A stretch of DNA of 50,595 nt from a virus: the IMG/VR virus record IMGVR_UViG_3300009604_000003, positions 1 to 50,595 of that record. The stretch is one strand, 5' to 3'. Below, one piece after another: positions 3,211-50,283 of the stretch. How positions within the stretch are numbered: the first letter of the stretch is position 1; every line of letters starts with the position of its first letter. Made by a program: the position numbers and the translations under genes. Below the pieces are notes generated by a model. It was not told where the DNA came from, did not search any database, and was given only the letters and a program-made list of their open reading frames with translations.

Positions 3211-3269
3211 CCTCTCTCCCCCTCCCCCCTCTCTCTTCATTCTGAAGAGAGAGAGGGGGGAGGGGGAGG
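3211..3269. repeat. GA/CT-rich hairpin, copy 1 of a dispersed family
   Basis: The arms at 3211-3239 and 3243-3269 pair almost completely, with a TTC loop at 3240-3242 and one extra AG in the right arm. The core CTCTCTTCATTCTGAAGAG recurs exactly at 47381-47423 and 50238-50283. It sits just upstream of the AAA+ ATPase start. No T-run follows on the minus strand, so it may be a processing or regulatory hairpin rather than a classical terminator. Confidence 0.85.
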
Positions 3270-3299
3270 TATCCGGCTTCCCCCTCTCACGTTCCTGTT

Positions 3300-3425
3300 C
3301 CTGTATATGTGAACTCCTGTACATGTGAACTGCTCCTGTACATGTGAACTGCTCCTGTAACTGCACCTGTACATGTGAACTTCACCTGCACCTGTGTATG
3401 TGAACTTCACCTGTACATGTGAAAG
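3300..3425. repeat. Six iterons, consensus CCTGTACATGTGAACT
   Basis: Direct repeats begin at 3300, 3316, 3335, 3366, 3391 and 3410, each close to CCTGTRYATGTGAACT. The unit contains the palindrome TGTACA or its variant. Such arrays commonly bind a replication initiator or repressor. The array lies in a 426-base gene-free stretch between the 99-residue gene and the AAA+ ATPase gene. Here the unit is short, spacers vary from 0 to 15 nt, and there are no unique CRISPR-like spacers. Confidence 0.85.
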
Positions 3426-3580
3426 CCTCACGTGAGGGAGTCGCACCCTCACGTGAGAATGGAGAGTTATATCTCACGTGAGGAGATCATCCTCACATGA
3501 GAAAACTCACGTAAGAGAGAGTTATCTCTCACGTGAGGGAAGGGAGAAAAACTCCCTAGAGAGAGGGAAGTCCCTCTAGG
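3426..3580. repeat. Cluster of TCACGTGA palindromes and fold-backs
   Basis: TCACGTGA occurs at 3428, 3449, 3474 and 3529, with one-base variants at 3493 and 3508. Neighbouring copies pair with each other, for example 3427-3438 with 3446-3457, to form larger fold-backs. ACTCCCTAGAG pairs with CTCTAGGGAGT at the right end. This looks like a multi-site binding region adjoining the iterons. A further copy (CCTTCACGTGAAGG) lies inside the next gene. Confidence 0.8.
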
Positions 3581-3592
3581 GAGTGGGATTGA

Positions 3593-3892
3593 TCAGACCA
3601 TGGCAACCTCCCTTGGAACGAACGGGATTCCCTCCTGAAGGAGGAATCGTTCAGCCTCATCCCTCAGTATGGAGTAGTTGTAGTCCCCGTCTCCATTCAG
3701 ATCGAAGAGGTTGACATCCTCTCCTTCCTGAACAAAACCGTGAGAGAAAGCGAAGAAGATGAACTTGATGTCATTCTTCACGAACTCTGTAACTGAAACA
3801 GGTTCCTTCACGTGAAGGACTGTCTCTGTACCGCTAACGGGAAGTCCTGAAACTGTGACTCTCTCAGTCATAGACTCATTGAATAAACTCAT
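3593..3892 (-). CDS. Hypothetical acidic protein
   Basis: The 99-residue product is acidic and I recognise no family. A stretch FDLNGDGDYN around residue 65 looks like a Ca-binding DxDxD loop, but there is only one. AAAGGGAG precedes the ATG at 3892. The coding sequence itself contains inverted repeats, including a TCCTTCACGTGAAGGA palindrome near 3805 and a GATTCC...GGAATC fold-back near 3630, which is unusual for a gene. Confidence 0.65.
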   Translation of the reverse strand: MSLFNESMTERVTVSGLPVSGTETVLHVKEPVSVTEFVKNDIKFIFFAFSHGFVQEGEDVNLFDLNGDGDYNYSILRDEAERFLLQEGIPFVPREVAMV

Positions 3893-3991
3893 TGCTGTAC
3901 TCCCTTTCAGAGTAGAACTAAAGACTAAAATGGAAAAACTCCCCCTCTCTCGGAGAGAGAGAGGGAGCGGATTCGATCTCTTCAGAAGAGA

Positions 3992-4477
3992 TCAGACTTG
4001 GTTACAGATCCAACGAGAGGTCTTCACTCTCTTAGCATTGTGAAAGATCTTGTTGAAGATCATTCCAGACTGAGAGACTCTCTCTTCAATGGGAAGAGAA
4101 AGCCAGTTCTCAATGGCAAAGTGCTGAGCCTTTGAAGCCCAAACTCGGTTCTCTAGGGAGAACCGGACATTCACTTCCAAACCGGGAAGTTGAGAGGCTT
4201 TCAGGGGAGGAACTGGCCATCCAGACAGTTTCACCAGAGACCTTCCCTCTTCAGCAGGGAGACAGTGAAACTTGATCTCAGTTTCAGTAGGAACTGAAAC
4301 TGGAGCCTCGTTCCCAGAACTCACAGAGTGAGTTCTGGAGAGTTCCATTTGGAGTTGGATCAGAGCCTTGGTACTGAGTCCTTGGAATGTAGCACCTCTC
4401 ATTGAAGGATGGTCCTTCTTGATCCTAGAGATGATACTTTTTCTTGGACTGAGACGATTCTTTGTTGAAACTGTCAT
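3992..4477 (-). CDS. Hypothetical basic protein in a hairpin-rich gene
   Basis: This 161-residue basic protein is the first leftward gene from the divergent region. No family is recognised. AGGAG lies 8 nt before the ATG at 4477. The coding DNA is packed with short perfect inverted repeats: 4046-4061, 4146-4165 (8 bp), 4279-4302 (10 bp), 4314-4338 (11 bp, loop AGA) and 4404-4418. Either the frame is real and constrained by DNA or RNA structure, or the structure is the function and the protein is incidental. The clean start favours a real gene. Confidence 0.6.
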   Translation of the reverse strand: MTVSTKNRLSPRKSIISRIKKDHPSMRGATFQGLSTKALIQLQMELSRTHSVSSGNEAPVSVPTETEIKFHCLPAEEGRSLVKLSGWPVPPLKASQLPGLEVNVRFSLENRVWASKAQHFAIENWLSLPIEERVSQSGMIFNKIFHNAKRVKTSRWICNQV

Positions 4478-4539
4478 TGCAGAAATCTCCTAAATCGAAG
4501 AGGAAGAAATCCGAGCCGAGCCGAAACTTTTTCAGCCCG

Positions 4540-4651
4540 CTGCCCTTCTTTCTTCTCTCTTCTGTTCTCTTGAAGAGGGAAATCTCTCTCCCCTCACTTT
4601 GTTCGGGGAGAGATATTTCCCGTCGAACAGAAGAGAGAGAAAGAAGGGCAG
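4540..4651. repeat. Large nested hairpin upstream of the first leftward gene
   Basis: The outer arms at 4540-4567 and 4625-4651 pair nearly perfectly. They enclose an inner hairpin of about 17 bp (GGGAAATCTCTCTCCCC with a complement ending at about 4620). The structure lies in the leader of the leftward transcript. An open frame runs through it (4425-4661) but its residues simply reflect the repeat and it overlaps the better-supported gene at 3992-4477. Confidence 0.85.
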
Positions 4652-4709
4652 TACTTGCCATCTAACTATCTCCTAGTACTAAAGACATATGGCGTCGGCC
4701 TCGAAAATC

Positions 4710-4738
4710 GGGGGGAGGAGGGAGGGGAGGAGAGGGGG
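4710..4738 (+). other. Potential G-quadruplex tract
   Basis: Four G-runs of three or more (4710-4715, 4720-4722, 4724-4727, 4734-4738) are separated by 4, 1 and 6 nt, which meets the usual quadruplex consensus on the plus strand. It lies between the nested hairpin and the seven-hairpin array, within the only divergent intergenic region of the genome. Confidence 0.6.
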
Positions 4739-4812
4739 AAGTACAGATAACTAAGAAGACCGGACATCTTTGATGCTTACTTATCTATTAGAACTTACTA
4801 AGTCTCTTCACG

Positions 4813-5111
4813 ACAAACACTTAGAATCCATAGGATTATAAGTGTTTGTGAAACTCTGGTTTACCAGAGTTTCACGGCGCACGTTGGGTCACACAGTACA
4901 GAGTACTGTGTGACCCCGATCTGATTTCAAAGTACCACTTAGCATATCTCTTTGGAGATATGCTAAGTGAACCCAGCCACAACGTACCCCTTACTCTGTA
5001 AGGGGTACGTTGGTTTTCCAGAGCCGATCATCGCTTTACAGTACTAACAGGGTTAGTACTGTAAAGCGTACGCGTCTCAGGGGTCGGGTCACATCGTGAC
5101 CCGACCCCTGA
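4813..5111. repeat. Array of seven consecutive near-perfect hairpins
   Basis: Hairpins lie at 4813-4849 (one mismatch), 4848-4875, 4886-4916, 4936-4969, 4980-5012, 5032-5068 and 5077-5111. Their stems are 12-17 bp. Loops are ATA, TTTA, AGA, TTTG, TCT, AGG and ATC. The last six are separated by spacers of about 10, 19, 10, 19 and 8 nt. Stem sequences differ while the form is kept, implying selection on structure. No gene or tRNA is visible here. The array is flanked by leftward genes on one side and rightward genes on the other, so an origin, promoter hub, RNA leader or packaging site are the main options. Confidence 0.97.
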
Positions 5112-5197
5112 CGGCGGGGTTGCTTTTTAGTTATAACCTGCCCCAAGCAAATCTAAATATTTTTGGTACACTCCAGACGATCACAGGAGGATCTCAA

Positions 5198-5554
5198 ATG
5201 GATATACCTATCCCTAAAAAAGCGTGGCCTATTACTGATAAGTTCTTGGTGTACCCCGATCCACCCGACAAGGAAACAGAGGCGGGTATTATAATCACCG
5301 CAAGTTACCCCAAGTTCACTGGAACTGTAGTCAAGTTACCAGCAGATATTGAGGCGATTGATAGTCGTGGTTCATCGCACACTAAGTTCGATGCGAAGAA
5401 GAACGATATCGGCACGTTTGTTACTGTCGGTTCACGAATCCAATGGTCTAGTCAAACCGGATTCGCGGTTCCAGTTACCGTAGATGTAGATGGGGAAGAC
5501 ACTGACTATCTTCTATTCACCATTAGAGATGTGGATTTGATACTAGATGTTTGA
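5198..5554 (+). CDS. GroES-like co-chaperonin
   Basis: The 118-residue product resembles Cpn10/GroES: an opening strand ITDKFLVYPDPPDKETEAGI, then GTVV, then GTFVTVGSRI followed by a DGEDTDYLLFTIRDVDLILDV ending, matching the family order of opening strand, mobile loop, VGDRV-type strand and DILAVI-type end. Phage GroES analogues such as T4 gp31 help the host GroEL fold the capsid protein, which fits its place at the head of the capsid operon. I chose the ATG at 5198 because AGGAGG stands just before it; the frame is open upstream to 5096 but lies in hairpin 7. It carries an insert of about 20 residues (DSRGSSHTKFDAKK) in the middle. Confidence 0.75.
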   Translation: MDIPIPKKAWPITDKFLVYPDPPDKETEAGIIITASYPKFTGTVVKLPADIEAIDSRGSSHTKFDAKKNDIGTFVTVGSRIQWSSQTGFAVPVTVDVDGEDTDYLLFTIRDVDLILDV

Positions 5555-5669
5555 ATTGCCTTTTTTAACTATGATCGCAGATAAATGGAAACTTCCCTTC
5601 GATGAGGGAGAAGGTGATATATTAATAATAGAAGAAGAAGAAGAACCAGAGGACGAACCTGATGGTTAG
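5547..5669 (+). CDS. Small acidic protein before the terminase
   Basis: A 40-residue frame with an acidic tail (IIEEEEEPEDEPDG) starts inside the end of the GroES-like gene (GATGTTTGA) and overlaps the terminase start by 8 nt. The overlaps on both sides suggest a coupled, translated gene. It occupies the usual position of a small terminase subunit but is far too short to be one. Function is unknown. Confidence 0.5.
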   Translation: MFELPFLTMIADKWKLPFDEGEGDILIIEEEEEPEDEPDG

Positions 5670-7905
5670 GACAAACAAGGGTTCTATGTCGGTTAGTGAG
5701 CAAGAAGCCACTAAGCACGGTATGTCTCTGCCTTATATTCCCGGTGCTGAGAAGCCTAGTTGGATAGATCGTAAAGAAGACGTTTGGCTTGATAAAGACC
5801 ATACGCAGATCAACCCCTCCTACTTGATTGAGGAGAGGGATAGGATCATCGATTTTTCTGACAAGCATTTTAATTACTATGGATTCCGCTGGCTCATGGA
5901 GGCGGATATGTTGAAGGGCATCGTAGAGCAGGCCAAGCACTTTGGTATTGACCTGACTACGTTTGCGCCCGAGACGCTTTCTTTGAAAGACATTCAGAAT
6001 TTTGACCAGTTGATAGAAGCGGGCAGTGAGACTCTTGAGATTCTCATTAAGCGCATTGAAGATGGTCATGAGCGGGCTGTCCGCATGTTGGACGAAGCAA
6101 AAAAAAAGCGTTGGGTCGATACGCTCAAGAAAATATCGATGGTAAGGGAATTGTGCAGAGAAAAAGATCACCCAAGTCTCGACGCAAAAAGTCGGGAGGG
6201 TGAGGCTTGGCGCTACATGCATACGCTTAGGTTTGCGTTGTATGTAGGGCGAAGTGACATTACCGGCAAGTTGGACTTCATCCACTTACCAGATCACCTG
6301 ATCCTTACGGATCTTGTGAAAGAGATCGCATACGAATATCGGGAAGACGCTGAGATTCAGGGTGTCATGATTGTCATCCCGCCTCGTCACGGAAAGTCAT
6401 GGTTCATGATTTTCGATGAGTTGCTTGCTATCTGCATGAATCCAGATGAAATTGGGGCGATCATCCATAACTCAGAGGACATGGCTGCCAGTCGTCTGAA
6501 GGTTATTAAAGAACATTTCAACGATCAGTTGCCGCAGGGGAAGCGGCGGCGTGCTTTGTTCCCCGAGATTAAGATGGATTGGAATATCAATAATAGTCAG
6601 ACGATGGTTCTTCAGAACCGGAATGTCATGGCGATGGAAGGGAACTGCAACTCGTACGGTTTGCACGGCAAGCGCCTCGGTGTCACGATTCACCGTCTTA
6701 GAGGTGATGACATCATTGACCAGAAAGAGTGCAGAGAATCGTCAACTAGACAGAGAACCAACGAAACCTTTACGAAGGTGTGGCTGTCTCGATTGACTTC
6801 GAAGAGAGCATTCTTCTTTATCATCGGTACTAGGTGGCATGACGATGACATCCTCGGAAAGATGCTCAGAATGCTTCGTGCCGGTCAGACCAATTTTGCA
6901 TATGTCTCCATCCCTGCTGGCGGGCCAGAGGATGACTTCACTCCTATCTGGCCGGAGGTAGGATACGACACAAGATATCTTGAGCGGTGGTTCTATACCT
7001 TGGGGCCACAGGACTACTCCTGCATTTTCCAGAATGATCCTGACACTGCAACAGCACGTAAAATCACGAAGTTATGGTTCTATGACAAGCGGTGGGTAGA
7101 AAATCCAGACGATGCTCCGCAGCATGTAAGGAACTTCTTAGCACGTGGAACTTATGCCCTATCGGTTGATCCTGCCGGAACAGAGGCTAGGAGATCTAAC
7201 AAGGCTGGAATGACTTATTGTGTGTATGGGCCTATGGAGGTGAAGTTGCCATCAGGCCTCATTGTTGAGCAACAAACTATGTGGTTCTTGCGCAACTGGG
7301 ACTTGTCTGCCAGTCAATACACCATTACAAAGATAATCTCGGACTTCTATAATAGGCAAAGAAGGGCGGATGGAAGGCCAGAGGTGGATCGTATAGTCGT
7401 TGAAACCACCGGGGGTTTCCATGCGACTACTGAGATGCTCATCAATGATCGTGGTATTCCTGATAGCGTGGTCATTAAACGCGCTCCGGGTAAGGGAAAT
7501 AAGATTGATCGGTTCCTCCAATACTCTGCGTTTATTGAGGGAGGCAAGGTCTATTTTCCGGGTACACCATCCAAGGGTATATCGGATGACGAGCAACTTG
7601 TTATGGACAACGATTGGTCTGAAGCGGCCAACCAGATGTTGCGAGCGGGTACTGTTAGTGATTTGAACCTGCTGGACTGTATATCCCAGCAGTTGGCAGA
7701 TGTCGCCTATATCTTCATGGAAGATAATGTCCACGATCATCCCGAACTTCTTGCTAGGGAGAGGGCGCGTCAATCTTCTTATGGCGAGGTTAAGTTGGAG
7801 ATGTACAAGAGGAAGATGGAGGGAGACAAGAGAAAGAAGGACCGAAGGAAGAATGGTTCATCTCTTGGTTATTTACGTCAAATTCAATCGAGGAGATTTG
7901 GGTAA
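5662..7905 (+). CDS. terL: Terminase large subunit (packaging ATPase-nuclease)
   Basis: This 747-residue protein is the DNA-packaging motor. It has a Walker A of the PPRHGKS type at about residue 240, an ATPase domain with GTRWHDDD downstream, and an RNase H-like nuclease with Asp in LSVDPAGTEA (about 503), Glu in VVETTGG (about 580) and Asp in LLDCISQQLADV (about 672). An N-terminal extension of about 200 residues precedes the ATPase; it is longer than in most large terminases and might include small-subunit function. It is followed directly by the membrane protein and portal genes. No separate small subunit is recognisable. Confidence 0.92.
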   Translation: MVRTNKGSMSVSEQEATKHGMSLPYIPGAEKPSWIDRKEDVWLDKDHTQINPSYLIEERDRIIDFSDKHFNYYGFRWLMEADMLKGIVEQAKHFGIDLTTFAPETLSLKDIQNFDQLIEAGSETLEILIKRIEDGHERAVRMLDEAKKKRWVDTLKKISMVRELCREKDHPSLDAKSREGEAWRYMHTLRFALYVGRSDITGKLDFIHLPDHLILTDLVKEIAYEYREDAEIQGVMIVIPPRHGKSWFMIFDELLAICMNPDEIGAIIHNSEDMAASRLKVIKEHFNDQLPQGKRRRALFPEIKMDWNINNSQTMVLQNRNVMAMEGNCNSYGLHGKRLGVTIHRLRGDDIIDQKECRESSTRQRTNETFTKVWLSRLTSKRAFFFIIGTRWHDDDILGKMLRMLRAGQTNFAYVSIPAGGPEDDFTPIWPEVGYDTRYLERWFYTLGPQDYSCIFQNDPDTATARKITKLWFYDKRWVENPDDAPQHVRNFLARGTYALSVDPAGTEARRSNKAGMTYCVYGPMEVKLPSGLIVEQQTMWFLRNWDLSASQYTITKIISDFYNRQRRADGRPEVDRIVVETTGGFHATTEMLINDRGIPDSVVIKRAPGKGNKIDRFLQYSAFIEGGKVYFPGTPSKGISDDEQLVMDNDWSEAANQMLRAGTVSDLNLLDCISQQLADVAYIFMEDNVHDHPELLARERARQSSYGEVKLEMYKRKMEGDKRKKDRRKNGSSLGYLRQIQSRRFG

Positions 7906-17091: not shown

Positions 17092-20000
17092 TTAGAACTT
17101 AGGTTGCTGCGGAATATGTTGTCCGGGGACAAATCCCTCGCGCCTAAGAACCGTCATATCCTCTCTTCTAAATTGCGGATGTAGCACCTTGGGAACCCTC
17201 TGTCTCATGCCAGAATGCCACATAATCCGATACTCTTGAATAATTCTTGTTGCTATACTTTCTGCTAAAACTTCGTCGCCTTCTCTTACTGCTCTATTTA
17301 CCTGTCTTTTTAAAGCCTGAATATCCTTGTTTCTTTCCATGCTAATTCGCATCTGCAATTTTCCGATGTCTAGCGGCTGCCATCTACCCCTAACCGCTAG
17401 TTTATATAGTACACCCTCTAAGCCGTCTGTTTTCCCTGCTTGTGTTAATTGATTATAAGAACCAACCCACCCGATTTGCCTTCTTAGATACTCTCCGATT
17501 GATAACCCGCCGAGTTCTTTGTCTCCGATTAGTCGTTGATCGAAGGTTTGTATTCCCAAAGCAATTTCAATTGGTGCCTTAATTAAAGGCGAAGAAGACA
17601 TAAGGAAATAATGCATCATTTCCTTCAATCCTTCTGCGCCATAGAGTGCTTGACCGATTTCCGCGAGTTCTTGAATAGGTGTTAGTGTCCCAATCCTAAG
17701 ACCCTTGGTGGTACCGTCATCCGCGCTCATCTGTATCATGAGTTGATTGCGCTGATATCGCGGCAATATAAATGTCGGTACTTTATCTTCTTCCTTTAAT
17801 GTTTCTTCCTCTATCGCGTGTTTGATCTTCTGGAAAGAAGCGTGATATTTAGGTTTCTCGAATAGCAGTTTGAATTGAAGTGCAATGTTATTTCTCTGCC
17901 ACGCATAGAATGGAATAACTCGTCGTCCAATAGACTGTTCGAGATTGGTGAAGTCCCCGTAATCGAAGTGCGCCTTCTTCATCAACAACTGGGCTGCTTC
18001 CAGAGAATCGCCCCTGTCTCGCCTTGCCATATAAACAAGTGTTCTAAATGTATCGTCGATAGATGCATTTAGTTTGAACCACCAAGCACCAAGTGGACCT
18101 GCGGTGGCGATATTTTTAAGGAAGCCTTGTTTAACCTTTCGGGCCTGTGCATTGGGATTGGCGTAGGCCGTTCTATGAGTCATAAAGATTTCGCGCGCAA
18201 CCTGACTTCCATCCAGCGCATTAATACGAACAAGATGTTCGGCAAACTGCGTTTCGTTTAATTCTTCACCCGCAATGATATATTTTTTGGTGTCGTCGAA
18301 AGACAGTCCCGGTCCATGTGGAATGGTTTTTGCCAACCTGTTGCCGAAGTGGTATTGGCTCGCAATATGATGTGCCTTCCTGAAGTTTCTAAAGAAATCA
18401 GCGGGCGTAAGTTCTCCAACTACGATTGAGTGGATGACTCCCCCCATTATATTTACAGTGGTCCAGCCGGGGTGCATCAGGACCGTACCTTTCCAGATGG
18501 ATTGTATGTAATCAAACATACCGGCTATAGCGGATAGATTCTGGTCGTTGGTTATCTTGGTTAGATAATCTTCAACGGATGCTGCGAGATCTTCTGGATA
18601 CCAGAGATGCTTCCCCTCAGTTCCAAATAGCGCTTGTAGTGTTGCATCGTCTCTGACTTCTTTAGACAATCTTCGGTAAGAAACATTATTAATAATGATC
18701 TCCCCGCCTTCGCTAATTGATCCTACTCCAGCGCGGGGGTTTCTTACATAATCCTGAATCTCAGCATCCTTTAGGATCTTTATTTCAGGGCCAATGTAAT
18801 TCAGGAAATCATGCACTGCTTCTATGCGGTGATGTTGCTTGGCTCTGTTCCCAAGAACAAGACCTAAATCAGTTTCGAAGATTTCTCCCGCAAAACTATT
18901 GCCAGTTAAGTGTGCAAATCTGTCTCTTACACCCGGTCTATTTAGTTCATATGGGCTAGTTGGGTGTGCTTTGAACTGCCACGATTCACCTTTAATATCG
19001 CCTCCGGGCAGCCCGCCAGTTTTGCCTTCTGCAAGTAGCGCTTGGTTATATTCCGCGATATCTCCGGGCAGCATCTTCTCCGGGTTTTGTCGTAGGAATG
19101 TTCGTCTTGCTAGTTCATACGCCTCTGGCAAATTGCCATCGTTTATCTGCTGGCTAAATACATAGGACCAACCCTGACCAGTTTCATCAACCCAGTCCGG
19201 GTCATGTTCTGTTGGATACCAATGCCTGTTCGTTGCCCTATGTCTACCGGATGGCTCGTTTATCGATATCCTTCCGGTAGAAGGATTCCTTCGAACACCA
19301 AGAGCGCCCTGTTGATATGCCGCTTTTTGCGCTTCCTTGGTAAATCGTAATGGTATATAGGCAAATGCGGGGTTATACGTGCCCTGTGCGGCCCAATCCG
19401 ATTCACTTAATCCATATTGTCTATGCCTATCAACAACCTCTTGGGCTAGATCCGTGATCTGCTGATCCTTCCAGATAGCATCTCGCCCCCCATGCTTAGC
19501 CATTACGTTGTCTAGTGACTGAGGATTAGATGGATCAAATATCCAATCTGATTTATGGAATCCTCTTAGACCGTGTTTGCCGCCTTCTTGCAGTTCTATC
19601 ATCTTGGCGAGGAGGATTACATTAGCGTCCTCGATATCCATGTCGTGTCTTTTTGCTATTGTCTTTACACTTTTGTCATAGTGCCTAATAACAAGAGACT
19701 GCTTGAATCCCGGCAGGTTGCCGTGTGCGTATCTGAATCTCGATACGGCTTCACCAGATGTAGCATATCTTCTACCAACACCAGTTACGTTTCGGAATAC
19801 CCGATCAAATCTTTCCGCTACTTTAGCCGCTGAGTTTACACGGCTTTTCTTCATGGTATCCAACTTCGCGTCAATGGGTGCCCTTGCTTTACGAGCGGCA
19901 TCTCTAGCCATCTGCACTTTTTCGTTTAGATCTACAGTCGAACTGGCAAGATCTTCTATATGGTTATAGTGCCCTCTGTTCTTGGCTTCAATCCGGGCCT

Positions 20001-23000
20001 TTTTGTTGGCTTGTTTTCGATACTCTGTGGCTGATCTCTTGGATTCTATTGTTGCACCAAATGTCAGGTCGAGTGTTTGCTTTAACCTGCCTCTAATTGG
20101 CGCTTCCCTAAATGCTGCCTGACCGTATACCTCTTTCATGTATGCGGCTAAAGTTTCAAATGCTTCTTGCAATTCCGGGGTAGGTGCCTTGCCTGTTCTG
20201 ATGTTTTCCAGCACAGCATCTACAAAGGCCTCGTGCGCTTCTCTTGTCCAGTTCCCCTTAACTACTCCGAATTGTCTTTCTATACGTGCCCTTACGCCTA
20301 CCGGCATAAACTCCAATATAACGTGACCCATTTCATGCAAGAATGAAACAGCATCGGGCGCATCAAGTGCGCGAATTAGAGCGGTTCCACTCTCCAAGAA
20401 TTCAGCCGAGGCCTTAATGGTTCCGTCTCTTGTTTCGAAGAAGTAATCTCTTCCTTGTGCCGACCTTCTTCTGACATCACTACTCATTGTGAAGTACGGT
20501 CTTTGCACCATTCTGGATGCTATTTCATCCACCGCTTCTAGGCCAATTGTGTCATAAAGTCTTTGGAGATCCCTACTCTTAAGTTGACGCACAACCTGTG
20601 CGCCGGTTGGGTTAACATCTACCGTTAACCCAACAATTTTGGCAAATATATCTGCTTCCGCATCTATAACCTCCATGGTTGATGTGTCTCTCCATCGACT
20701 TGGATTCGTAAATCCAGCGTCATCTGCCTTGAGTCCCTTTCTAGTTTTATATAGAGTCACGGCCTCCTCAAAAGACATCTCATTTAGCCTTTTGGCCCAC
20801 TCATCTGAATTTTCCGCGATCCCAAGTGCCCTTAGTTGATCTTTTGCATTATCTACTTTGTTATAGAAATCCCTAACCATTTCCTCTACAAGTTTACGTG
20901 ATTCAACGGCGTCGGCCCCGGTTGATAAACCACTTATAGACTCGAAGTTTGCACCATCTAATCTTGCAAGGGCTGCTGATCTGTCTGTAGCCATGAATAT
21001 ATATGGATCGCCCATAATGTTTCCCATTATTGGGCCAGCGAATCCTCCAATCGGGCCATATTCAAGTTTTCCACCGACACTTTCTACGGCTTCTTTGAAG
21101 AATCTCGGGAGTTCTTTTTCATACCAACGTCCTGTTTGAGTTTCCAGTACATTAGTATTATTCCACCTGTTGAGTTTTATTTCGTTTGCTCGCGTGTGAC
21201 CGATTTGTTGTGTCAATTCATTGACATCCCAATCCACTCTCGTCGGGATTATTAACTCATTGACTTCTTGCTTCCCAGTTCGCTTTTGTGGACCAACTGC
21301 GCCTTTCTTTCGTGCCTTGAGTTTTAGTTTAAGGTGCGCTGTGTATCTACTCGTATCAGCCTCACTGATTCCACGAGAAGCGTTATGAACCAAATGATCC
21401 GATAAAGATGCACTATCATGCGCCTCGGGCGCTGCTCTGGCAGCCTCTTTGGTACGAACTATTTGCCATTCAACTACATTGTTTCTTCCGTGTAGCAGTC
21501 CTACCCCGTCACTGATTCCGTCTCCCTCTGTTACGGAACGCAAAAGAGGCGCGATGTTTTGTGAGTCTGCCGGTTCAGCAAGCCTTGAATCTTCTATCAA
21601 TGAAATTATGAATTTTCGCGCTCGTTTTATTGTTAATCCGGGATTTAGGTCTTTCAATTCTTTGGCTAAATCATCTACCGTTCTCGTAGGAGTTCCTGTA
21701 ATAAACTCTTGGAGCGCATCCCATTGTGTGGTTCGTGTAAGCCTATTAACAAACTTATCTCCATCCCCCATCGCACCAACCATATGTTTAGCATCGCCTA
21801 TCATGACCTTCTTAATATCACCATGTTCGTGAGCATATTTGCCTATCATTTGGCGTATTGCTGTTCTGGCCCAGTTCTTCTTTGTGGCTCCGTGGAATTC
21901 GGGAGCGAACTGCCCGCCCCATATACCTCGACCAGCGCCCTTGGCGGTTTGTTCAATGCCTTGATTAATTAGGAATGCCGAGCGTAGTTCCGGTGGCAAA
22001 TCCCCAAGCGCTTGCACTACATCTCTGGTTAGTACCCCATCAGACCTTACTATATTATCGATAGCATTTCTAGTTTTTCGTAGGGCATCGTCCTCTTTCC
22101 TCCCCAAACCTAAACGTAGAACTGTTTTTATATCTTCCCCATAATGGGCTTCCACGCTTCTAATAAAGCCCTGCAAAGCGTTTTCTGCGCCTTGCATAAC
22201 ACTACTACTCACATCATCAATTACCATAATTTTGCCGCCAATGTTGCGGTCGTGAAGTATGGAAACTTGGATTTGCCCGACATGTCCGGCCATGTCCCCC
22301 AACTGACTTTCCGATGCGTTGCGAGATACAGGCAATGCGCCTCGTGATCCAAATCCCTGACTTCTAGTATCCACGGCGAATAAGTTGTACACTTGTGTTT
22401 CGAGTACATCAGCGTTTCCAACGCTTCTTTCGGGAGAATGATCCCCATAAACCCGGCTTCCATGACGCTCGGTACTTTGTGCGTGCTTAGAGGCACTAGG
22501 AACCATCGCCTCGCTTCCCATGTCCATAATCAAGGACATGTTTCTTGCTTCTGTTTCCAAGTTCGAATATTGAATTGCTAAGCGTGTCAACCTTGGATCA
22601 TTGATATTAGCAACAGCGTGCCAGAAACTCGATGCTTCATAGATCGCTAGGTTCCCCGATCCCTCAGATGGTACTTTAGTCCCAAGAAGACGCGATCTCT
22701 TCTCACCCCCGTAGCGAGAATGACCAGCAAGATCCCCACCAAATTCGGATTGTATTTCATCCCACAATGTTGCTTTGGCTGCTTTGTTTTCTTGGTGCAT
22801 CCGATGGAAATGAGCGCCAAGTTCTTCCGGTATATGTTGGTTGTATCCATCAGATCCAACCAAGTGCATATACAAACCATCTGATGAGTTAGCATCAACC
22901 CAAGAATTCATAGCATTGTGATCAATACGTGCTTTGGTGCCTCGGGTGGGCTGAATCGGAGCATGTATAGGACTATAAGGTTCCCATGTGCCTATACTTA

Positions 23001-26000
23001 CTTCTCCGGGTCTAGTGAATCTATCTTCACCCAGTCTTTTTACAATTTTGCCACCCTCTGGTCTGACTCGTGTTCTTCTTGCAATTGCTGGATCAAGTAT
23101 CACATATGAAATACTCCCCTTATCTTCTACTGTGTTAACGTAAGGAATTACGTCGTATCCCCGATCTCGTATTTCTGCTATTTTTTCGGGGTGTTTAATG
23201 AGCCATTCGTTTACTGTAAGGTCTTCAATCATACTCCCATCTATTTCACTGTAGAATGGTCTTGTGGCCCTTATCTCAAGTTCATAAACTGCCTTGGGGA
23301 TTTGGCCTTCCCGATGTCGTTTGGAATACTTAGCGGGCTGGAGGGGCAGTCTTTCTCTAGCGGCTCTTAATGTTCCGGCGTGAAGTGGTGGTGCCTTTTT
23401 ATACGTGTACAAACGAAATTCACCCCGCACCTCATCCCCACCGTGATAAACCGTAATAGTTTGGTTTTCTGGAAATCCCGATTCAATTCTATCGAGATAA
23501 TCCAGCATCCAAGAGGCCCGTAGTTCCTCTTGGTTGGGCGGAGCAATAACATTCAACTCATCAACTAGATCCCACCCATCATCTATAAGGGCGGTTTTTT
23601 CTGCGTTGTTCAACGAACGCCAATCCTCAAAGAGAACTGAATCAGGCTCACCAGCCGCAAACGCTAGTTCCCGCTCAGCAGGGGTTCGATGGTCTCTGAC
23701 CTCAAACTCCATAAGGAAGTGTCGCCATTCCTCTACCGAGGAGTTTTTCTTCATTACACCAGAACGAACAGCAACATCCACGAGGTTTTGCACTCGCCAT
23801 CGTTGCCATATTTTCGGATGGTGAGTTAGTCTAAGTTGCTCGACGATGTTCCCGAGAAAATATAGACCCTCTGAGTTGACTCCATCTGCTCTGGAGAGTT
23901 CGTGGGCATTTCTGTAGTGGAGGCGTATCGCTTCGTGGATCCTTTCTTCCCTTTTTGCCTGCGTGGTCGCTTTCGTGGACGGGGCGAGTTTTTGTTTGGT
24001 CCCTTTTTGGGCATTTACTTTTGCTCCTTTAAATAATTTCTTGAGTTCTATCCCGTGAGCCTCGGTCCAAGGTACATCCTTATCCAAGAATAACCAAGCG
24101 ACCATTTTGCCATCTTTTTCAGCGATGTGTATATCAATACCACTAGCCTTAGCGCCGGTCCATTTCTTGAATTGATTAAGGCCAACCGCAACTGAACTCG
24201 CCCTTGTTGCTGCTGGGAAATTTCCAGCAGAAATGCGACTAAGTTCTACAATTGTCTCTGAACCATCGCCGGTAACAAAGGTGATAGCCGTGTCATGGCC
24301 GCGAAGTCCGGCCTGATGATGCGCGGTAAATGCTATTTGGTGTCCCAATACCTCTTCTGTTGTATCACCGATCCACAAGGCGGAATCCGTGTGGCCTGCG
24401 GTTCCGTGGGATATTCCCATGCTGTTGTCTACCGGTGTTACTTTCGACAATTGTTTGCCGATAAGTTTAACCGCTGTTTGGTGCCCTTCTTTTTTCGCGA
24501 GTTGCTGAGTAAGTTTCCATGCATCCCCCGCACTTGATTCAGCCTCAACCCCTCGATGTAAGTAAAACAGTCTTGTTGCATCTCCGCTTTCCGATGCAGG
24601 GATAGAGTGGAAGAATGCACCTCTGCCGGGGGTTCCGCCCTTAACGACATTGATCTTTGTTGACAAGAATTCGGTGGGTGTCAACCCAAATCTGGGAGCA
24701 AGAGAGGTAGCCATGGCATCTACTAGATATGACAGAGCCTTTGCCACCTTTGCTGGGACATTGAACTTTACTTTTATGTTGTCAACGAATTCGGTTGCAC
24801 CGGGTCGTGGCTTGTAGTCCTCGGGTATGAGGGCTTCCATCCTCTTCGTAATCTCATCGATTTTCTTTTGGTTCCCAAGAATCACGTTGGCTTGAAGACG
24901 AACTATTTCGTTTGTATTGGATCTCGTAACCTGACCAATTTGTTGTTCTACCAACTTCCTTTCATGTTCAATGGCGTTTACCGATGCTTCCATCGTGTGC
25001 ATCTTTTCGTTCCACCCACGGAACATTCGGCCAAACCCACCCGGCCCAATGTACATGTCGAGGGCTTGCGCCATCTCGTTGCCCCGAACACTATCCACCG
25101 CATCAAGAATGGCTGACGATTGCGGGGAAAGAAGGGATTGGATTTCTCGTGTAGTTAACTCTTCTCTTTGCAAAAGAGACTTGAGTTCTTTTTCTGTCTT
25201 TGTTATTACCTGTTGAAATTCAGCCAGCCCCTCTGCCACTTCTGCTGGTACTTGCTGCAACTCACCAGCCGCGCCCTCTAGCGCAGGAAGTGTGTTTTTT
25301 AGTTCCGACTCCGCGACCTTGGCTGATTGCAGTTTGTTAGTTGCCTTCTCAATAGCCGATAAATGCACGGCATTTCTTTCGTGCAATTCGACGAGTTCTG
25401 CCAAGGAGTCCCGCCTTCTGGTTTTACTTTGTTGTTTAAGAAAAACCTCCAAACTCGGCTCATCAAATCCTGACGTTATATCCGCATCTGGTTTCCACTT
25501 GATCCTTTTACCGTCCTCCATGAGTATGCCGTCTTTGAGATATTTGTATTCATCAGCAGTTAGATCTACTACCTTTACCCTGAATCCAACTTGCGGCGCT
25601 GTCTGGTAATCGGAAATTCCATTTCCATTGCGGGGTGCCCATTCGATTTTGTTAGCCAACTTCTCGTTGCCCATGGCTTTTCGAAGAGCGTTTTGATATT
25701 CAACAACAGCCTCTCCCTCCCTCTTGAATATCGGAGCGACGAGTTCAACTGTTTTATAAGCACCCATCTTGCCGAGCAACCCAGCCTTATATGCTTTTAG
25801 AACTGCTCTATCAGCATTTACAAACGCCTCATAAGCGGTCCTTGCCTCCATGCCCTTTGAGCCTGTTGCACCCGGCACTCTCTTAAACTTGGATAATCCG
25901 CGAAGGGCTTTGTACTGCCGTGCAGTAGCCCCGAACTTAAACGGGACAGGCATATTGGTAAGTATGTTCCTGTATCCAATCCTTCTCCACAGGAGTGGTG

Positions 26001-27348
26001 CCACCCAATCCATGAATGGGAGATGTGTTTGAAACATACTCTTTGCTTGGAATCGCCTGAAGAACTCTAGGCTGATCTCTTGGCTTCTGATCAAGTGCTT
26101 AGATTTTTCAATTGCTGGCGTCAAAGATCTGTAGTGCATCAAGTTATCTTGAAGCGCTTTCATAATCTGGCCGCGTGCCCGCCCTATGTCTTTCCGAGAC
26201 ACACGGATTAATGCCCCTTCAGCACCCCTTATCATTCGCCCATCAAAACTGTTTACGATTTTCAGTGCCTCATCCAAGCGAGCGAGGTGATCCATTCCAC
26301 CCCCAATGTGGCGGATCTCGTTTCCAATTACGATGTGATTATTAACCAGATCCTCAAGAATTTTGTATTGGTGTCCGCGCGGCATGACCAGTTTGCCGTT
26401 TACTATCTTCCCCTCCTTGAGCATCATGTCCGATGCGTGCTTAAGATATTTAACTCCCCGACTTTCAACTGATACAAATCCCCTCGAAGCGATCCCCACT
26501 CCCTTGCCCCACTTCGAAATTGTTCCCCCCGCTGTCATATATGACAGTGGATCAAACAATATGTCTCCAAATAGACCCAAGAGTGTGCGCTTAACGCCCG
26601 GCTCCATGCCCAGTTGCTCAAGAACCTCTGAGTACCAAAGCCGTGGTACTCCAGCCGAGGCCAACTCTTGGCTTTCTATTTTCTTGCGGATAGCAATGCT
26701 CGCTGCCGCAGTAATGGATCGAGAGGCTATCCCAGCCGCCACTGTTGTGCCTGTATATGTTGCGGCAGCCAGCGCCATACCCCATCCGGCACCAGCGATG
26801 GTTCCTCCGGGGCCACCGGCCAGAGTTCCAAGAATACCACCACCAATAGCACCGAAAACCTCTTGGGCCGCAAGGCCCCTAAACCATGTGGAGGCATCCG
26901 GTTTATCGGTATACATTATGTTGGCTATGGAGTTTCTAGGTAGATCAATAAGATCGAGGAACTTCATAAACGAACCACGCTCATCTCCAATGAGGTGCTG
27001 CCCAGATTGGTCAATCAAGTCTCGGATCTCAGATGGATCCATTCGATTAATCTGGTCAATTGTGAGCCGTGGAACCGTTCTCTGTTCCAGTTGTGCCTGT
27101 GTTCTTGGGTTTGCTTCCCTGTTAGCAAAGATCGCTTCGTCTATTATCTGTTGCCTTGCATTATTAAACTGATTAGCATTCGCCTCCATAAGCAACTTGC
27201 TGCGCATCTGACCTATTTCATATTGATCTTTCGATTCGGTATTATTAAAGGGTGGCGGTGCAAGTCGCACGCCGGTAACGCCACCGCGACCCATGTTGCG
27301 GAGGAACGTCTCGTTACCAAGTTGAATTGGACCAGAGAACTGGGTCAT
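17092..27348 (-). CDS. Giant polyvalent virion protein: ART-like, zinc-protease and C-terminal ejection module
   Basis: At 3,418 residues this fills a fifth of the genome. Residues 155-220 are Gly/Ala-rich and hydrophobic, a possible membrane-entry segment. About 650-740 is a coiled coil. About 1290-1425 resembles the ADP-ribosyltransferase domain of phage polyvalent proteins (VYHGGDE, an AARERLPL segment, ENTVEDKGSISYV-like end). HEMGH at 2338-2342 followed by a TGKAPTPELQEAF helix is a zincin metallopeptidase. About 3140-3155 (GRRVIPFYAWQRNNIALQ) belongs to a C-terminal module common in very large phage internal proteins. Such proteins travel in the virion and are thought to be ejected to modify the host. 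It overlaps the upstream gene by ATGA. I saw no RNA polymerase motifs. Confidence 0.85.
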   Translation of the reverse strand: MTQFSGPIQLGNETFLRNMGRGGVTGVRLAPPPFNNTESKDQYEIGQMRSKLLMEANANQFNNARQQIIDEAIFANREANPRTQAQLEQRTVPRLTIDQINRMDPSEIRDLIDQSGQHLIGDERGSFMKFLDLIDLPRNSIANIMYTDKPDASTWFRGLAAQEVFGAIGGGILGTLAGGPGGTIAGAGWGMALAAATYTGTTVAAGIASRSITAAASIAIRKKIESQELASAGVPRLWYSEVLEQLGMEPGVKRTLLGLFGDILFDPLSYMTAGGTISKWGKGVGIASRGFVSVESRGVKYLKHASDMMLKEGKIVNGKLVMPRGHQYKILEDLVNNHIVIGNEIRHIGGGMDHLARLDEALKIVNSFDGRMIRGAEGALIRVSRKDIGRARGQIMKALQDNLMHYRSLTPAIEKSKHLIRSQEISLEFFRRFQAKSMFQTHLPFMDWVAPLLWRRIGYRNILTNMPVPFKFGATARQYKALRGLSKFKRVPGATGSKGMEARTAYEAFVNADRAVLKAYKAGLLGKMGAYKTVELVAPIFKREGEAVVEYQNALRKAMGNEKLANKIEWAPRNGNGISDYQTAPQVGFRVKVVDLTADEYKYLKDGILMEDGKRIKWKPDADITSGFDEPSLEVFLKQQSKTRRRDSLAELVELHERNAVHLSAIEKATNKLQSAKVAESELKNTLPALEGAAGELQQVPAEVAEGLAEFQQVITKTEKELKSLLQREELTTREIQSLLSPQSSAILDAVDSVRGNEMAQALDMYIGPGGFGRMFRGWNEKMHTMEASVNAIEHERKLVEQQIGQVTRSNTNEIVRLQANVILGNQKKIDEITKRMEALIPEDYKPRPGATEFVDNIKVKFNVPAKVAKALSYLVDAMATSLAPRFGLTPTEFLSTKINVVKGGTPGRGAFFHSIPASESGDATRLFYLHRGVEAESSAGDAWKLTQQLAKKEGHQTAVKLIGKQLSKVTPVDNSMGISHGTAGHTDSALWIGDTTEEVLGHQIAFTAHHQAGLRGHDTAITFVTGDGSETIVELSRISAGNFPAATRASSVAVGLNQFKKWTGAKASGIDIHIAEKDGKMVAWLFLDKDVPWTEAHGIELKKLFKGAKVNAQKGTKQKLAPSTKATTQAKREERIHEAIRLHYRNAHELSRADGVNSEGLYFLGNIVEQLRLTHHPKIWQRWRVQNLVDVAVRSGVMKKNSSVEEWRHFLMEFEVRDHRTPAERELAFAAGEPDSVLFEDWRSLNNAEKTALIDDGWDLVDELNVIAPPNQEELRASWMLDYLDRIESGFPENQTITVYHGGDEVRGEFRLYTYKKAPPLHAGTLRAARERLPLQPAKYSKRHREGQIPKAVYELEIRATRPFYSEIDGSMIEDLTVNEWLIKHPEKIAEIRDRGYDVIPYVNTVEDKGSISYVILDPAIARRTRVRPEGGKIVKRLGEDRFTRPGEVSIGTWEPYSPIHAPIQPTRGTKARIDHNAMNSWVDANSSDGLYMHLVGSDGYNQHIPEELGAHFHRMHQENKAAKATLWDEIQSEFGGDLAGHSRYGGEKRSRLLGTKVPSEGSGNLAIYEASSFWHAVANINDPRLTRLAIQYSNLETEARNMSLIMDMGSEAMVPSASKHAQSTERHGSRVYGDHSPERSVGNADVLETQVYNLFAVDTRSQGFGSRGALPVSRNASESQLGDMAGHVGQIQVSILHDRNIGGKIMVIDDVSSSVMQGAENALQGFIRSVEAHYGEDIKTVLRLGLGRKEDDALRKTRNAIDNIVRSDGVLTRDVVQALGDLPPELRSAFLINQGIEQTAKGAGRGIWGGQFAPEFHGATKKNWARTAIRQMIGKYAHEHGDIKKVMIGDAKHMVGAMGDGDKFVNRLTRTTQWDALQEFITGTPTRTVDDLAKELKDLNPGLTIKRARKFIISLIEDSRLAEPADSQNIAPLLRSVTEGDGISDGVGLLHGRNNVVEWQIVRTKEAARAAPEAHDSASLSDHLVHNASRGISEADTSRYTAHLKLKLKARKKGAVGPQKRTGKQEVNELIIPTRVDWDVNELTQQIGHTRANEIKLNRWNNTNVLETQTGRWYEKELPRFFKEAVESVGGKLEYGPIGGFAGPIMGNIMGDPYIFMATDRSAALARLDGANFESISGLSTGADAVESRKLVEEMVRDFYNKVDNAKDQLRALGIAENSDEWAKRLNEMSFEEAVTLYKTRKGLKADDAGFTNPSRWRDTSTMEVIDAEADIFAKIVGLTVDVNPTGAQVVRQLKSRDLQRLYDTIGLEAVDEIASRMVQRPYFTMSSDVRRRSAQGRDYFFETRDGTIKASAEFLESGTALIRALDAPDAVSFLHEMGHVILEFMPVGVRARIERQFGVVKGNWTREAHEAFVDAVLENIRTGKAPTPELQEAFETLAAYMKEVYGQAAFREAPIRGRLKQTLDLTFGATIESKRSATEYRKQANKKARIEAKNRGHYNHIEDLASSTVDLNEKVQMARDAARKARAPIDAKLDTMKKSRVNSAAKVAERFDRVFRNVTGVGRRYATSGEAVSRFRYAHGNLPGFKQSLVIRHYDKSVKTIAKRHDMDIEDANVILLAKMIELQEGGKHGLRGFHKSDWIFDPSNPQSLDNVMAKHGGRDAIWKDQQITDLAQEVVDRHRQYGLSESDWAAQGTYNPAFAYIPLRFTKEAQKAAYQQGALGVRRNPSTGRISINEPSGRHRATNRHWYPTEHDPDWVDETGQGWSYVFSQQINDGNLPEAYELARRTFLRQNPEKMLPGDIAEYNQALLAEGKTGGLPGGDIKGESWQFKAHPTSPYELNRPGVRDRFAHLTGNSFAGEIFETDLGLVLGNRAKQHHRIEAVHDFLNYIGPEIKILKDAEIQDYVRNPRAGVGSISEGGEIIINNVSYRRLSKEVRDDATLQALFGTEGKHLWYPEDLAASVEDYLTKITNDQNLSAIAGMFDYIQSIWKGTVLMHPGWTTVNIMGGVIHSIVVGELTPADFFRNFRKAHHIASQYHFGNRLAKTIPHGPGLSFDDTKKYIIAGEELNETQFAEHLVRINALDGSQVAREIFMTHRTAYANPNAQARKVKQGFLKNIATAGPLGAWWFKLNASIDDTFRTLVYMARRDRGDSLEAAQLLMKKAHFDYGDFTNLEQSIGRRVIPFYAWQRNNIALQFKLLFEKPKYHASFQKIKHAIEEETLKEEDKVPTFILPRYQRNQLMIQMSADDGTTKGLRIGTLTPIQELAEIGQALYGAEGLKEMMHYFLMSSSPLIKAPIEIALGIQTFDQRLIGDKELGGLSIGEYLRRQIGWVGSYNQLTQAGKTDGLEGVLYKLAVRGRWQPLDIGKLQMRISMERNKDIQALKRQVNRAVREGDEVLAESIATRIIQEYRIMWHSGMRQRVPKVLHPQFRREDMTVLRREGFVPGQHIPQQPKF

Positions 27349-30346: not shown

Positions 30347-30607
30347 TTAGTAGCCTAGTTCAGGCCCGCCACCCATCATGGGGGGCGGCCCGCCCATTGG
30401 CGGCCCCATTGGTGGAGGTCCACCCATGGGGGGTCCACCCATCGGCGGTCCCATCATGGATGGGGGTGGCATTTCCATGCCTTCGGGGGGCATGGGCATT
30501 TCTCCGCCCATATCCATCTCCCTCTGACCCTCAACCAAGATCATTTGTATGGCATCCAAGATGCCCATCGGGTCGTATCCGAAATCAATACCATTCACAT
30601 TGGGCAT
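30347..30607 (-). CDS. Met/Gly/Pro-rich small protein
   Basis: The 86-residue product is half a normal helix (MGILDAIQMILVEGQREM) and half a repeat of MGGPPMGGPP type. Its start shares a base with the stop of the preceding frame (TAATG). Function is unknown; such tails occur in virion assembly proteins. Confidence 0.55.
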   Translation of the reverse strand: MPNVNGIDFGYDPMGILDAIQMILVEGQREMDMGGEMPMPPEGMEMPPPSMMGPPMGGPPMGGPPPMGPPMGGPPPMMGGGPELGY

Positions 30608-31008
30608 TACTTGTTGTCCTGTTTCCTATGGAATGGTACCCACTCATTGAGTTTTGCCTTGCGTTTGTTGCAACCACAATCTCCAGTGGGCTTTATTCCC
30701 GTTGTCTTACTGATAACTTTACCAACTAAATCCCCTAATCCCCCCATTTCTTTTAAGGATTTCATGATGCGCTTAAAGATGTTGGGCTTTTTAACACCCG
30801 ACCTTCGCGCAAATTCCTTTGGAGAAACGGTTTCTATATAGGGGGCTAGAGGCGATGTGCTTTGACCTACTACCTTGGTCCGGTAGCGCACTGTTGTATC
30901 ATCGCTGTTTATGCGATGTCTCACCGTTCCCAGTGAGTGCCGGACTATCTCTTCGTCATTATGACGCTGGGCGCTCGTGGATGTATTATCGATTTGGCTT
31001 CTCAACAT
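30607..31008 (-). CDS. Downstream exon frame of the intron-split cysteine-rich tail gene
   Basis: A 133-codon frame, of which about the first 40 codons lie inside the group I intron (30889-31204) and are probably not normally translated. The likely exon part is 30607-30888 (93 residues), starting near RYRTKVVGQSTSPLAPY and ending with CGCNKRKAKLN, a motif seen in phage proteins that can bind metal. Exon 2 at 30888 and exon 1 ending at 31205 are both on codon boundaries, so splicing would give one protein of about 365 residues. The apparent start at 31008 has no good Shine-Dalgarno. Confidence 0.7.
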   Translation of the reverse strand: MLRSQIDNTSTSAQRHNDEEIVRHSLGTVRHRINSDDTTVRYRTKVVGQSTSPLAPYIETVSPKEFARRSGVKKPNIFKRIMKSLKEMGGLGDLVGKVISKTTGIKPTGDCGCNKRKAKLNEWVPFHRKQDNK

Positions 31009-31204
31009 CTAGTCTCTGCACCTTCCGCTTACTTTAATACCATTCAGCGGCTTGGCTCAGGATTGCCGGTTCTCGGTTTCCCTGAATTCACCCAGTAAAG
31101 GCCTATGATCCGATGGGATCACATGTTACCCATGTATCTACAAGATACACAGCGGAGTGGGAATCACACAGACTGTGATTCCTCCTGAAATTCAAATGTA
31201 GTAT
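30889..31204 (-). ncRNA. Group I self-splicing intron (IC3-like), no endonuclease
   Basis: The minus strand carries the catalytic-core signature in order. P4 is TCAGG (31085-31081) within GAATTCAGGGAAAC, pairing with CCTGA (31061-31057) in GGCAATCCTGAGCCAAG. P6 is GCCGCT/AGCGG. GGTGCAGAGACTA carries the P7 strand GACTA (31014-31010), pairing with TAGTC (30947-30943) in GATAGTCC. P9 is CTCAC/GTGAG (30937-30920) and P9.1 is CATCGC/GCGATG (30918-30900). These closely match the cyanobacterial tRNA-Leu intron. The candidate 5' site follows CCTT at 31205 (U-G pair with GAGG downstream); the candidate 3' site follows G30889. The core is certain; exact ends are inferred. Confidence 0.95.
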
Positions 31205-38681: not shown

Positions 38682-38756
38682 TCTAACGAGGCTCCCATCT
38701 CATCCATCGGCATCATACTCTCTATCGCTCCAATTACAGCGGCTTGTGGATACTTG

Positions 38757-38974
38757 GGACACATGGGACACATGTTCTTATAAAGCCCAATCAACTCTAT
38801 TCGCTTACTCTCTTTTTGTTATATATTTCTACTGTTTAATGTGTCCCAAGTGTCCCAAGTGTCCCAGCCCCAAAAAAAATTGTGTGTAAATATTTGTCAA
38901 CACAGGCCTTATAAAACTTCCTGAGACTGTGGCCCTTCGCCCAACATGTGTCCCAACATGTGTCCCATGTGTCC
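38757..38974. repeat. Cluster of GTGTCCC / GGGACAC operator-like repeats
   Basis: The heptad GTGTCCC occurs twice inverted at about 38757-38775 (GGGACACATGGGACACATG), three times in a row at 38841-38866, and three times at about 38947-38974. The cluster runs from the leader of the HTH gene to the end of the primase gene. The region is otherwise gene-free apart from the promoter. These are good candidates for HTH-protein operators or replication iterons. Confidence 0.8.
38820..38849 (-). promoter_or_regulatory. Candidate sigma-70-like promoter for the HTH operon
   Basis: On the minus strand TTGGGA (38849-38844) and TATATA (38825-38820) are 18 nt apart. The -35 box overlaps the triple GTGTCCC repeat, as expected for repressor control. 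The predicted start lies about 130 nt before the HTH gene, whose leader holds two more repeat copies. An exact TTGACA is seen upstream (38900-38895) but lacks a matching -10. Confidence 0.45.
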
Positions 38975-43654: not shown

Positions 43655-43687
43655 ATCTATATCCTTCCTTGTTAGTGGTTAGAGACT
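43650..43687. repeat. 38-bp perfect inverted repeat, right arm (gene leader)
   Basis: This arm covers the end of the ArdA-like frame, the Shine-Dalgarno and start codon of the 43313-43654 gene. It pairs exactly with 43387-43424. Inversion between the arms would swap the N-terminal coding segment while keeping the ribosome-binding site and ATG. Confidence 0.95.
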
Positions 43688-43981
43688 GAGGTAGACGTAC
43701 ACGCCGCCGGATGCGGTCCGGGCGGTCCAGTAGCCACCCTCCAGATCACGTGCATATGCGGCGTGGTCGAAGTAGCACCGTATGGACTCGGGCATCTGAT
43801 CGAGATACCCGCAATCATCCGCATGGTCATAGGCGAAATCTTCAATGCTGTTCCACTCGCCTTGGTACGCCTCCTCGAAGGCTTCCACATTGTCGGCGGT
43901 GTCATTGCCATACGAACCGTGTGAAGGGATTCGGGTGTAGGCATGTTGCGCCTTCCTTTCAAATAAAAACCCGGCCACCAT
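43679..43981 (-). CDS. ArdA-like antirestriction protein, truncated or frameshifted
   Basis: The frame contains EAFEEAYQGEWNSIEDFAYD and a C-terminal segment like YFDHAAYARDL, matching the C-terminal part of ArdA, a DNA mimic that inhibits type I restriction enzymes. The usual first two thirds are missing. The only good Shine-Dalgarno/ATG (43951-43960, ATG at 43944) is in a different frame, and the frame itself has no suitable start; the ATG used here, at 43981, lies within the terminator hairpin. A frameshift, a non-canonical start or a decayed gene are possible. Confidence 0.55.
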   Translation of the reverse strand: MVAGFLFERKAQHAYTRIPSHGSYGNDTADNVEAFEEAYQGEWNSIEDFAYDHADDCGYLDQMPESIRCYFDHAAYARDLEGGYWTARTASGGVYVYLSL

Positions 43982-44022
43982 CAGCGTTGCTTGGGGGAAG
44001 CATTGCTGATTAGGTGGCCGGG
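43962..44022 (-). terminator. Rho-independent terminator after the SSB-like gene
   Basis: CCCGGCCACC (43970-43979) pairs with GGTGGCCGGG (44013-44022), with an inner ATCAGC/GCTGAT stem. On the minus strand it is followed by GTTTTTATTTG. It ends the SSB-like transcript and precedes the ArdA-like gene, whose frame runs back through it. Confidence 0.85.
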
Positions 44023-44051
44023 GCACGCCTCCGGGTAAAAAAGAGGTGATA

Positions 44052-47380: not shown

Positions 47381-47423
47381 ACCCTACCCCCTCTCTTCAT
47401 TCTGAAGAGAGAGAGGGTAGGGT
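47381..47423. repeat. GA/CT-rich hairpin, copy 2 of the dispersed family
   Basis: The arms at 47381-47399 and 47403-47423 pair around a TTC loop, with two extra bases in the right arm. The core equals that at 3211-3269 and 50238-50283. It lies in the gap before the 136-residue gene on the minus strand. Confidence 0.85.
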
Positions 47424-50259: not shown

Positions 50260-50283
50260 TCTGAAGAGAGAGGGGGTAGGGGT
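50238..50283. repeat. GA/CT-rich hairpin, copy 3 of the dispersed family
   Basis: The arms at 50238-50258 and 50262-50283 pair around a TTC loop, with one extra AG in the right arm. The ATGA junction of two genes lies in the loop and left arm, so both stop and start codons are within the structure. This could control translation of the downstream gene. Confidence 0.85.

Follow-up and report, generated by a model that had tools for sequence, protein, structure and literature searches.

The Divergent Region of the Phage Genome

The window, that is, the whole stretch of DNA analysed (50,595 nt), is the complete phage record IMGVR_UViG_3300009604_000003; it closes on itself via a 123-nt terminal repeat (circular, 50.5 kb). 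It represents an uncultured tailed double-stranded DNA phage, for which no DNA match, and only remote protein matches, were found among cultured phages. The leftward genes begin at position 4477 and continue across the circle junction as far as 16.3 kb; the rightward genes extend from 5198 to 16.3 kb. The gene directions leaving 4477 (left) and 5198 (right) make the region between these two divergent operons the sole divergent point of the genome, and it is there that a hairpin array is located, as had been noted when the sequence was first inspected. The first rightward gene (5198-5554, plus strand) has a weak GroES-like match and is followed by the gene for the large terminase (5662-7905, plus strand), about 0.6-0.8 kb downstream of the array.

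Elsewhere, the phage encodes an AEP primase-helicase, an ArdA-like antirestriction protein (43679-44167, minus strand), and a giant protein of 3418 aa (17092-27348, minus strand), which carries no polymerase signature and both ends of which are conserved in G001, one of two relatives (G001 and G002) introduced below. The tetranucleotide AGCT is absent from the window and from the parts of G001 and G002 examined (0 seen versus 138, 126, and 102 expected, respectively), suggestive of hosts of a common kind that exert strong restriction pressure.

The Hairpin Array

Seven consecutive inverted repeats occupy positions 4813-5111, just where seven near-perfect hairpins had been reported; six of the seven are perfect, with stems of 13-17 bp and loops of 2-4 nt. 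The original prediction had put the stems at 12-17 bp and the loops at 3-4 nt. Hairpin 1 (4813-4849) comprises 17 bp with one G/A mismatch and a loop of 3 nt (ATA); the mismatch creates a TATAAT on the minus strand (4840-4835). Hairpin 2 (4848-4875), which overlaps hairpin 1 by 2 nt, can be read either as 13 perfect bp with the loop TT or as 12 bp with the loop TTTA. The next four are perfect and have a C-G pair closing the loop: hairpin 3 (4886-4916; 14 bp, loop AGA), hairpin 4 (4936-4969; 15 bp, loop TTTG), hairpin 5 (4980-5012; 15 bp, loop TCT), and hairpin 6 (5032-5068; 17 bp, loop AGG); altogether, such a pair closes the loop in six of the seven. Hairpin 7 (5077-5111; 16 bp, perfect, loop ATC) extends with its right arm into the conserved sequence CCCCTGAC. 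Among the 107 pairs in the array, 106 are Watson-Crick and one is the G/A mismatch; since there is no G-U or A-C pair on either strand, both strands fold equally well.

From hairpin 2 on, the spacers measure 10, 19, 10, 19, and 8 nt, exactly the regular spacing claimed before, and this alternation groups hairpins 2/3, 4/5, and 6/7 into pairs. One more pair, built by the same grammar (4279-4302 and 4314-4338; 10 and 11 bp, loops of 4 and 3 nt, spacer of 11 nt), is located inside an orphan gene at 3992-4477. The double-hairpin units thus described have their members 8-11 nt apart, with stems lengthening from 10/11 over 13/14 and 15/15 to 17/16 bp; within a pair, the first hairpin tends to have a loop of 4 nt and the second one of 3 nt (hairpin 2 being readable as 2 or 4). 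These pairing regularities are a post hoc observation.

The notion that structure rather than sequence is preserved holds: the stems are mutually unrelated apart from three shared 7-mers (CACTTAG, ACAGTAC, and GGGTCAC), which is slightly above chance (P ~0.0075), and no common operator emerged when one was sought among them. The arms of the array have no match longer than 10 nt in the rest of the genomes, and the genome contains no second copy of the array. The palindrome AGTACT has five of its six genome copies in the divergent region (4650-5060), three of them within array hairpins; the rest of the genome avoids it (14 expected genome-wide), and it does not occur in either relative. No T-run is present within 2 nt of the stem after any of the seven hairpins, and intrinsic terminators were rejected for the array hairpins on that ground. 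A search of Rfam 15 at the gathering score gave no relevant family, only a group I intron (30920-31175, minus strand; 76.5 bits), which adjoins the gene at 30607-31008, reaching threshold. Searches of the literature on hairpin arrays yielded no description of such a layout and no named counterpart, in accordance with the earlier remark that no named element built this way was known.

With a first-order Markov null model of the same composition, 0.0008 stems of at least 10 bp are expected per 320 nt, and 2000 shuffles of 4478-5197 never yielded a stem of 12 bp or longer. The fold z-scores of 100-nt windows across the array are -8.2, -6.0, and -4.6; in the genome-wide calculation, carried out at reduced depth, array windows account for three of the four lowest scores.

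The Surrounding Island and Its Orphan Genes

The array makes up the core of an island rich in hairpins, at about 3.2-5.1 kb, which reaches into an orphan gene; the excess of hairpins left of the array, to about 3.2 kb, had been overlooked in the original prediction. Seventeen of the 49 stems in the genome (at least 7 bp, loops of 2-6 nt) fall in 3.1-5.2 kb, and the segment 3170-4480 contains 11 stems versus 0.8-0.9 under local null models. The orphan gene itself (3992-4477, minus strand) is an ORF of 161 aa preceded by a ribosome-binding site, with no family match; it harbours four hairpins versus 0.39 in synonymous-codon shuffles (P 0.001), and it is missing beside the ATPase gene in both relatives. 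A second orphan ORF of 99 aa (3593-3892, minus strand) also has a ribosome-binding site and no family match. The predicted folds of both orphan proteins are of low confidence (mean pLDDT 46-50), too low for a fold search.

Between the 161-aa ORF and the array, the leftward leader contains a long inverted repeat (4538-4651), rich in CT/GA and enclosing a further hairpin, which overlaps an ORF of 78 aa (4425-4661, minus strand) with a good ribosome-binding site. The rest of the island (3216-3584), downstream of the orphan genes, consists of a 21-bp CT-rich hairpin (3216-3268), direct repeats of the iteron CCTGTACATGTGAA (3300-3423), palindromes of CTCACGTGAG whose core is as in parS (3426-3537), and a terminator-like hairpin (3551-3584, minus strand); the latter and another one at 3938-3968 are true T-tailed hairpins. 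Neither the CCTGTACATGTGAA repeats nor the CTCACGTGAG palindromes are present in the relatives. The hairpin at 3216-3268 belongs to a CT/GA-rich family with the core CTCTCTTCATTCTGAAGAGAG, the other members being located at about 47381-47420 and at 50238-50284, with compensatory changes in the outer stem; two of the CTCTCTTCATTCTGAAGAGAG-core hairpins lie at start sites of leftward genes, where they could hide the ribosome-binding site.

Relatives and Conserved Flanking Blocks

A search for relatives in viral contigs and genome contigs gave only G001 (IMGVR_UViG_3300032134_000004; terminase 76% and primase 69% identical) and G002 (IMGVR_UViG_3300021197_001498; 75% and 67%), plus one distant terminase, whose contig (L016) has no array. 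G001 and G002 have a common gene order, in which an intergenic region separates the leftward ATPase gene from the rightward genes for the GroES-like protein and the terminase. Two blocks flanking the array in the window are common to both: on the right (5105-5172, plus strand) CCCCTGAC..GGGGT, CCTGCC, and ATTTTT(C)TGGTACACT, the extended -10-like TGGTACACT being at 5164-5172, and on the left (4760-4776, minus strand) CCGGACAT....GATGC, the latter partly in G002. Between the blocks, the relatives have no perfect hairpin of at least 8 bp and fold z-scores near zero, with the proviso that the G002 contig may miss a piece between its ends. Both contigs end at a similar distance from the rightward promoter block, possibly a physical genome end. 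The original prediction had looked to homologous phages for stems with or without compensatory changes; the two homologues show no array at all rather than altered stems.

As far as these genomes tell, the array together with 1.3 kb holding the two orphan genes is confined to the lineage of the window. The array is real, highly non-random, and lineage-specific; because the relatives manage without it, it cannot be needed for a basic function of this phage group. Since the right arm of hairpin 7 enters the conserved CCCCTGAC, the left arm is the newer part.

Possible Functions of the Array

The array probably serves local gene control, and not as a replication origin. The reading we place first, at a probability of only about 0.3, closely followed by a transcribed RNA and then by a product of snap-back synthesis, is that of lineage-specific hairpins kept for their structure and acting as DNA, namely as supercoil-extruded cruciforms between two divergent promoters. 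Transcription outward from both sides would render the DNA in between negatively supercoiled, and inverted repeats with short loops (2-4 nt), mostly closed by C-G, might then extrude as a row of cruciforms, which would absorb supercoiling and/or present hairpins to a protein, the outcome being that the two promoters are insulated from each other or tuned. In the DNA of phage N4, short hairpins are known to extrude at physiological supercoiling (PMC4496689). As to sequence, the array does have the inverted repeats with short spacers that extrusion under negative supercoiling would require.

Promoter positions, cruciform extrusion, and function are all inferred. The array itself would be silent DNA between the promoters. 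A transcript starting at the putative rightward promoter sequence TGGTACACT, to the right of the array, would not include the array; on the other side, the minus-strand TATAAT, which stems from the sole mismatch of the array, would, if used, give rise to a leftward RNA from the left edge of the array. In the relatives, extended -10-like or TATGAT sequences can be seen by eye in the corresponding region, likewise on the side facing the ATPase gene. All these promoter calls are by-eye readings of consensus sequences, and a formal promoter scan returned none on the minus strand in the array region. Selection acting on RNA only is expected to leave some G-U pairs; their absence is in keeping with selection acting on the DNA, or with stems that are young. 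Indeed, the perfection of the stems could reflect nothing but young age, which counts against a DNA-level role, as does the lack of the array in the relatives, by which its function cannot be general; and the hairpins which the island has within a coding sequence do not fit a role purely between promoters.

It is possible, if again far from probable, that the array is transcribed, either as the 5′ part of the leftward leader or as a separate small RNA, and that the seven hairpins would protect the message, bind a protein, or serve as a decoy. Every array hairpin would be very stable as RNA (-17 to -33 kcal/mol), a weak minus-strand -10 sequence (TATAAC, 5137-5132) is found right of the array, the island extends into the leftward 161-aa gene with its enrichment over synonymous shuffles, and the phage seems to use RNA hairpins at start sites elsewhere. 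There is also a precedent for structured phage RNA being of consequence in host immunity (cabRNA, PMC10686824). However, a structured RNA is at odds with the complete lack of G-U pairs and of a matching Rfam family; moreover, no supported promoter puts the array within a transcript, and the relatives show no conservation.

Less probable, though still to be reckoned with, is that the array has little or no selected function and arose by mutation, that is, by repeated snap-back (template-switch) synthesis which placed inverted copies beside existing DNA. The left arm of hairpin 7 does resemble an inverted copy of older DNA, as CCCCTGAC is conserved in the relatives; the adjoining coding sequence also has hairpins; and the stems are perfect, little alike, and missing from the relatives, with arms matching nothing beyond 10 nt elsewhere in the genomes. 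On the other hand, uniform loops of 2-4 nt, closure by C-G in six of seven cases, and spacers alternating between 10 and 19 nt are unlike random events, and a strong hotspot would be needed for seven of them in 300 nt.

The proximity of the array to the large terminase gene recalls a DNA packaging or genome-end region (cos/pac), and the contigs of both relatives end in the corresponding region, at a distance of 219 and 208 nt upstream from TGGTACACT, which would be rare for random breaks. We nevertheless consider this unlikely. Contig ends may also arise where GC-rich or variable DNA assembles poorly; the two ends of G001 overlap by 240 nt, the joined ends of G002 aligned to G001 no better than shuffled sequences, and the closure point of the window lies elsewhere. 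Also, the central DNA is unconserved despite the 75-76% identity of the terminases, and the relatives do without hairpins.

A bidirectional replication origin or a single-strand initiation site, as once suggested, is very unlikely, although the AEP primase-helicase belongs to a class that can need structured sites. The local GC-skew switch to be looked for at the divergence point is indeed present, but skew tracks gene direction; and again the relatives have no hairpins in the equivalent region. What all three phages have in common are GTGTCCCA iterons of either orientation, accompanied by an AT-rich stretch and adjoining the primase-helicase gene (38754-38972 in the window; L014:14665-14887 and L026:5567-5798), far outside the array, and this site is the likely replication origin of the phage group.

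On the boldest reading, which is rather improbable, the array would stand for a kind of control element new to phages, an array of double-hairpin units defined by structure only and free of fixed sequence, used as a cruciform row or as a hairpin RNA, which can be gained within one phage group without altering the flanking promoter blocks. Were the array to have a function, it would be an element from nature that carries its information solely in structure, at a site where negative supercoiling is concentrated by divergent transcription, and the part played by cruciform extrusion or hairpin RNA in the gene control of phages could be tested directly; the relatives, with the same flanking blocks and no array, would be natural controls. 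As a mutational product, it would document snap-back synthesis in the genome of a phage at unusual density. The interest lies in the clean grammar of double-hairpin pairs, 8-11 nt apart, for which there is no named counterpart.

Comparison with Known Systems

The early promoters of phage N4 share with the array short inverted repeats, loops of 3 nt, and a double-stranded DNA phage as carrier; the N4 hairpins can extrude under supercoiling, as those of the array may. They consist, however, of one hairpin per promoter with conserved bases, a purine-centred 3-nt loop, and a stem of 5-7 bp (the stem length in part after PMC4496689), whereas the array has seven hairpins in a row, with mutually unrelated stems of 13-17 bp and varying loops. 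That the hairpins are promoters read by a virion RNA polymerase of the N4 type, injected with the DNA, for which the 3418-aa protein would be the candidate, is therefore highly improbable: the stems are about twice too long and share no bases, and the giant protein has no Pfam, PHROG, or PDB polymerase match, nor are catalytic motifs A, B, and C in order. These searches agree with the original prediction, in which the 3-nt loops had called N4 to mind and no N4-type polymerase was recognised; a search of the genome with PF00940, run without a positive control that scored, found no cognate polymerase either.

TIGR-Tas stem-loop guide arrays, too, have tandem stem-loops with variable, consistently palindromic stems, spacers of 8-12 nt (near the 10 nt of the array), and occurrence in phages (PMC12045711). 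In these systems, each hairpin carries two guide spacers and box C/D in a large loop and the array lies by a gene for a Nop-domain protein, neither of which applies here. Searches of the genome for Nop-domain (PF01798) and IS110-type (PF02371) proteins found none while their controls scored, though a very divergent Tas could escape; membership was rejected on account of the 2-4 nt loops and the missing Nop-domain gene, and a guide array is accordingly just as improbable as N4-type promoters.

Organellar double-hairpin elements, compared by name, resemble the array in having hairpins in close pairs; they form repeated mobile families with recurring sequence, in contrast to the array, which is present in a single copy and has stems with no sequence in common. 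Finally, the intergenic region of filamentous phages (M13/f1) has several consecutive hairpins in one intergenic control region, just like the region described here. Those hairpins are imperfect and conserved and serve replication and packaging of single-stranded DNA, whereas the array belongs to a tailed double-stranded DNA phage with an origin-like site elsewhere in its genome.
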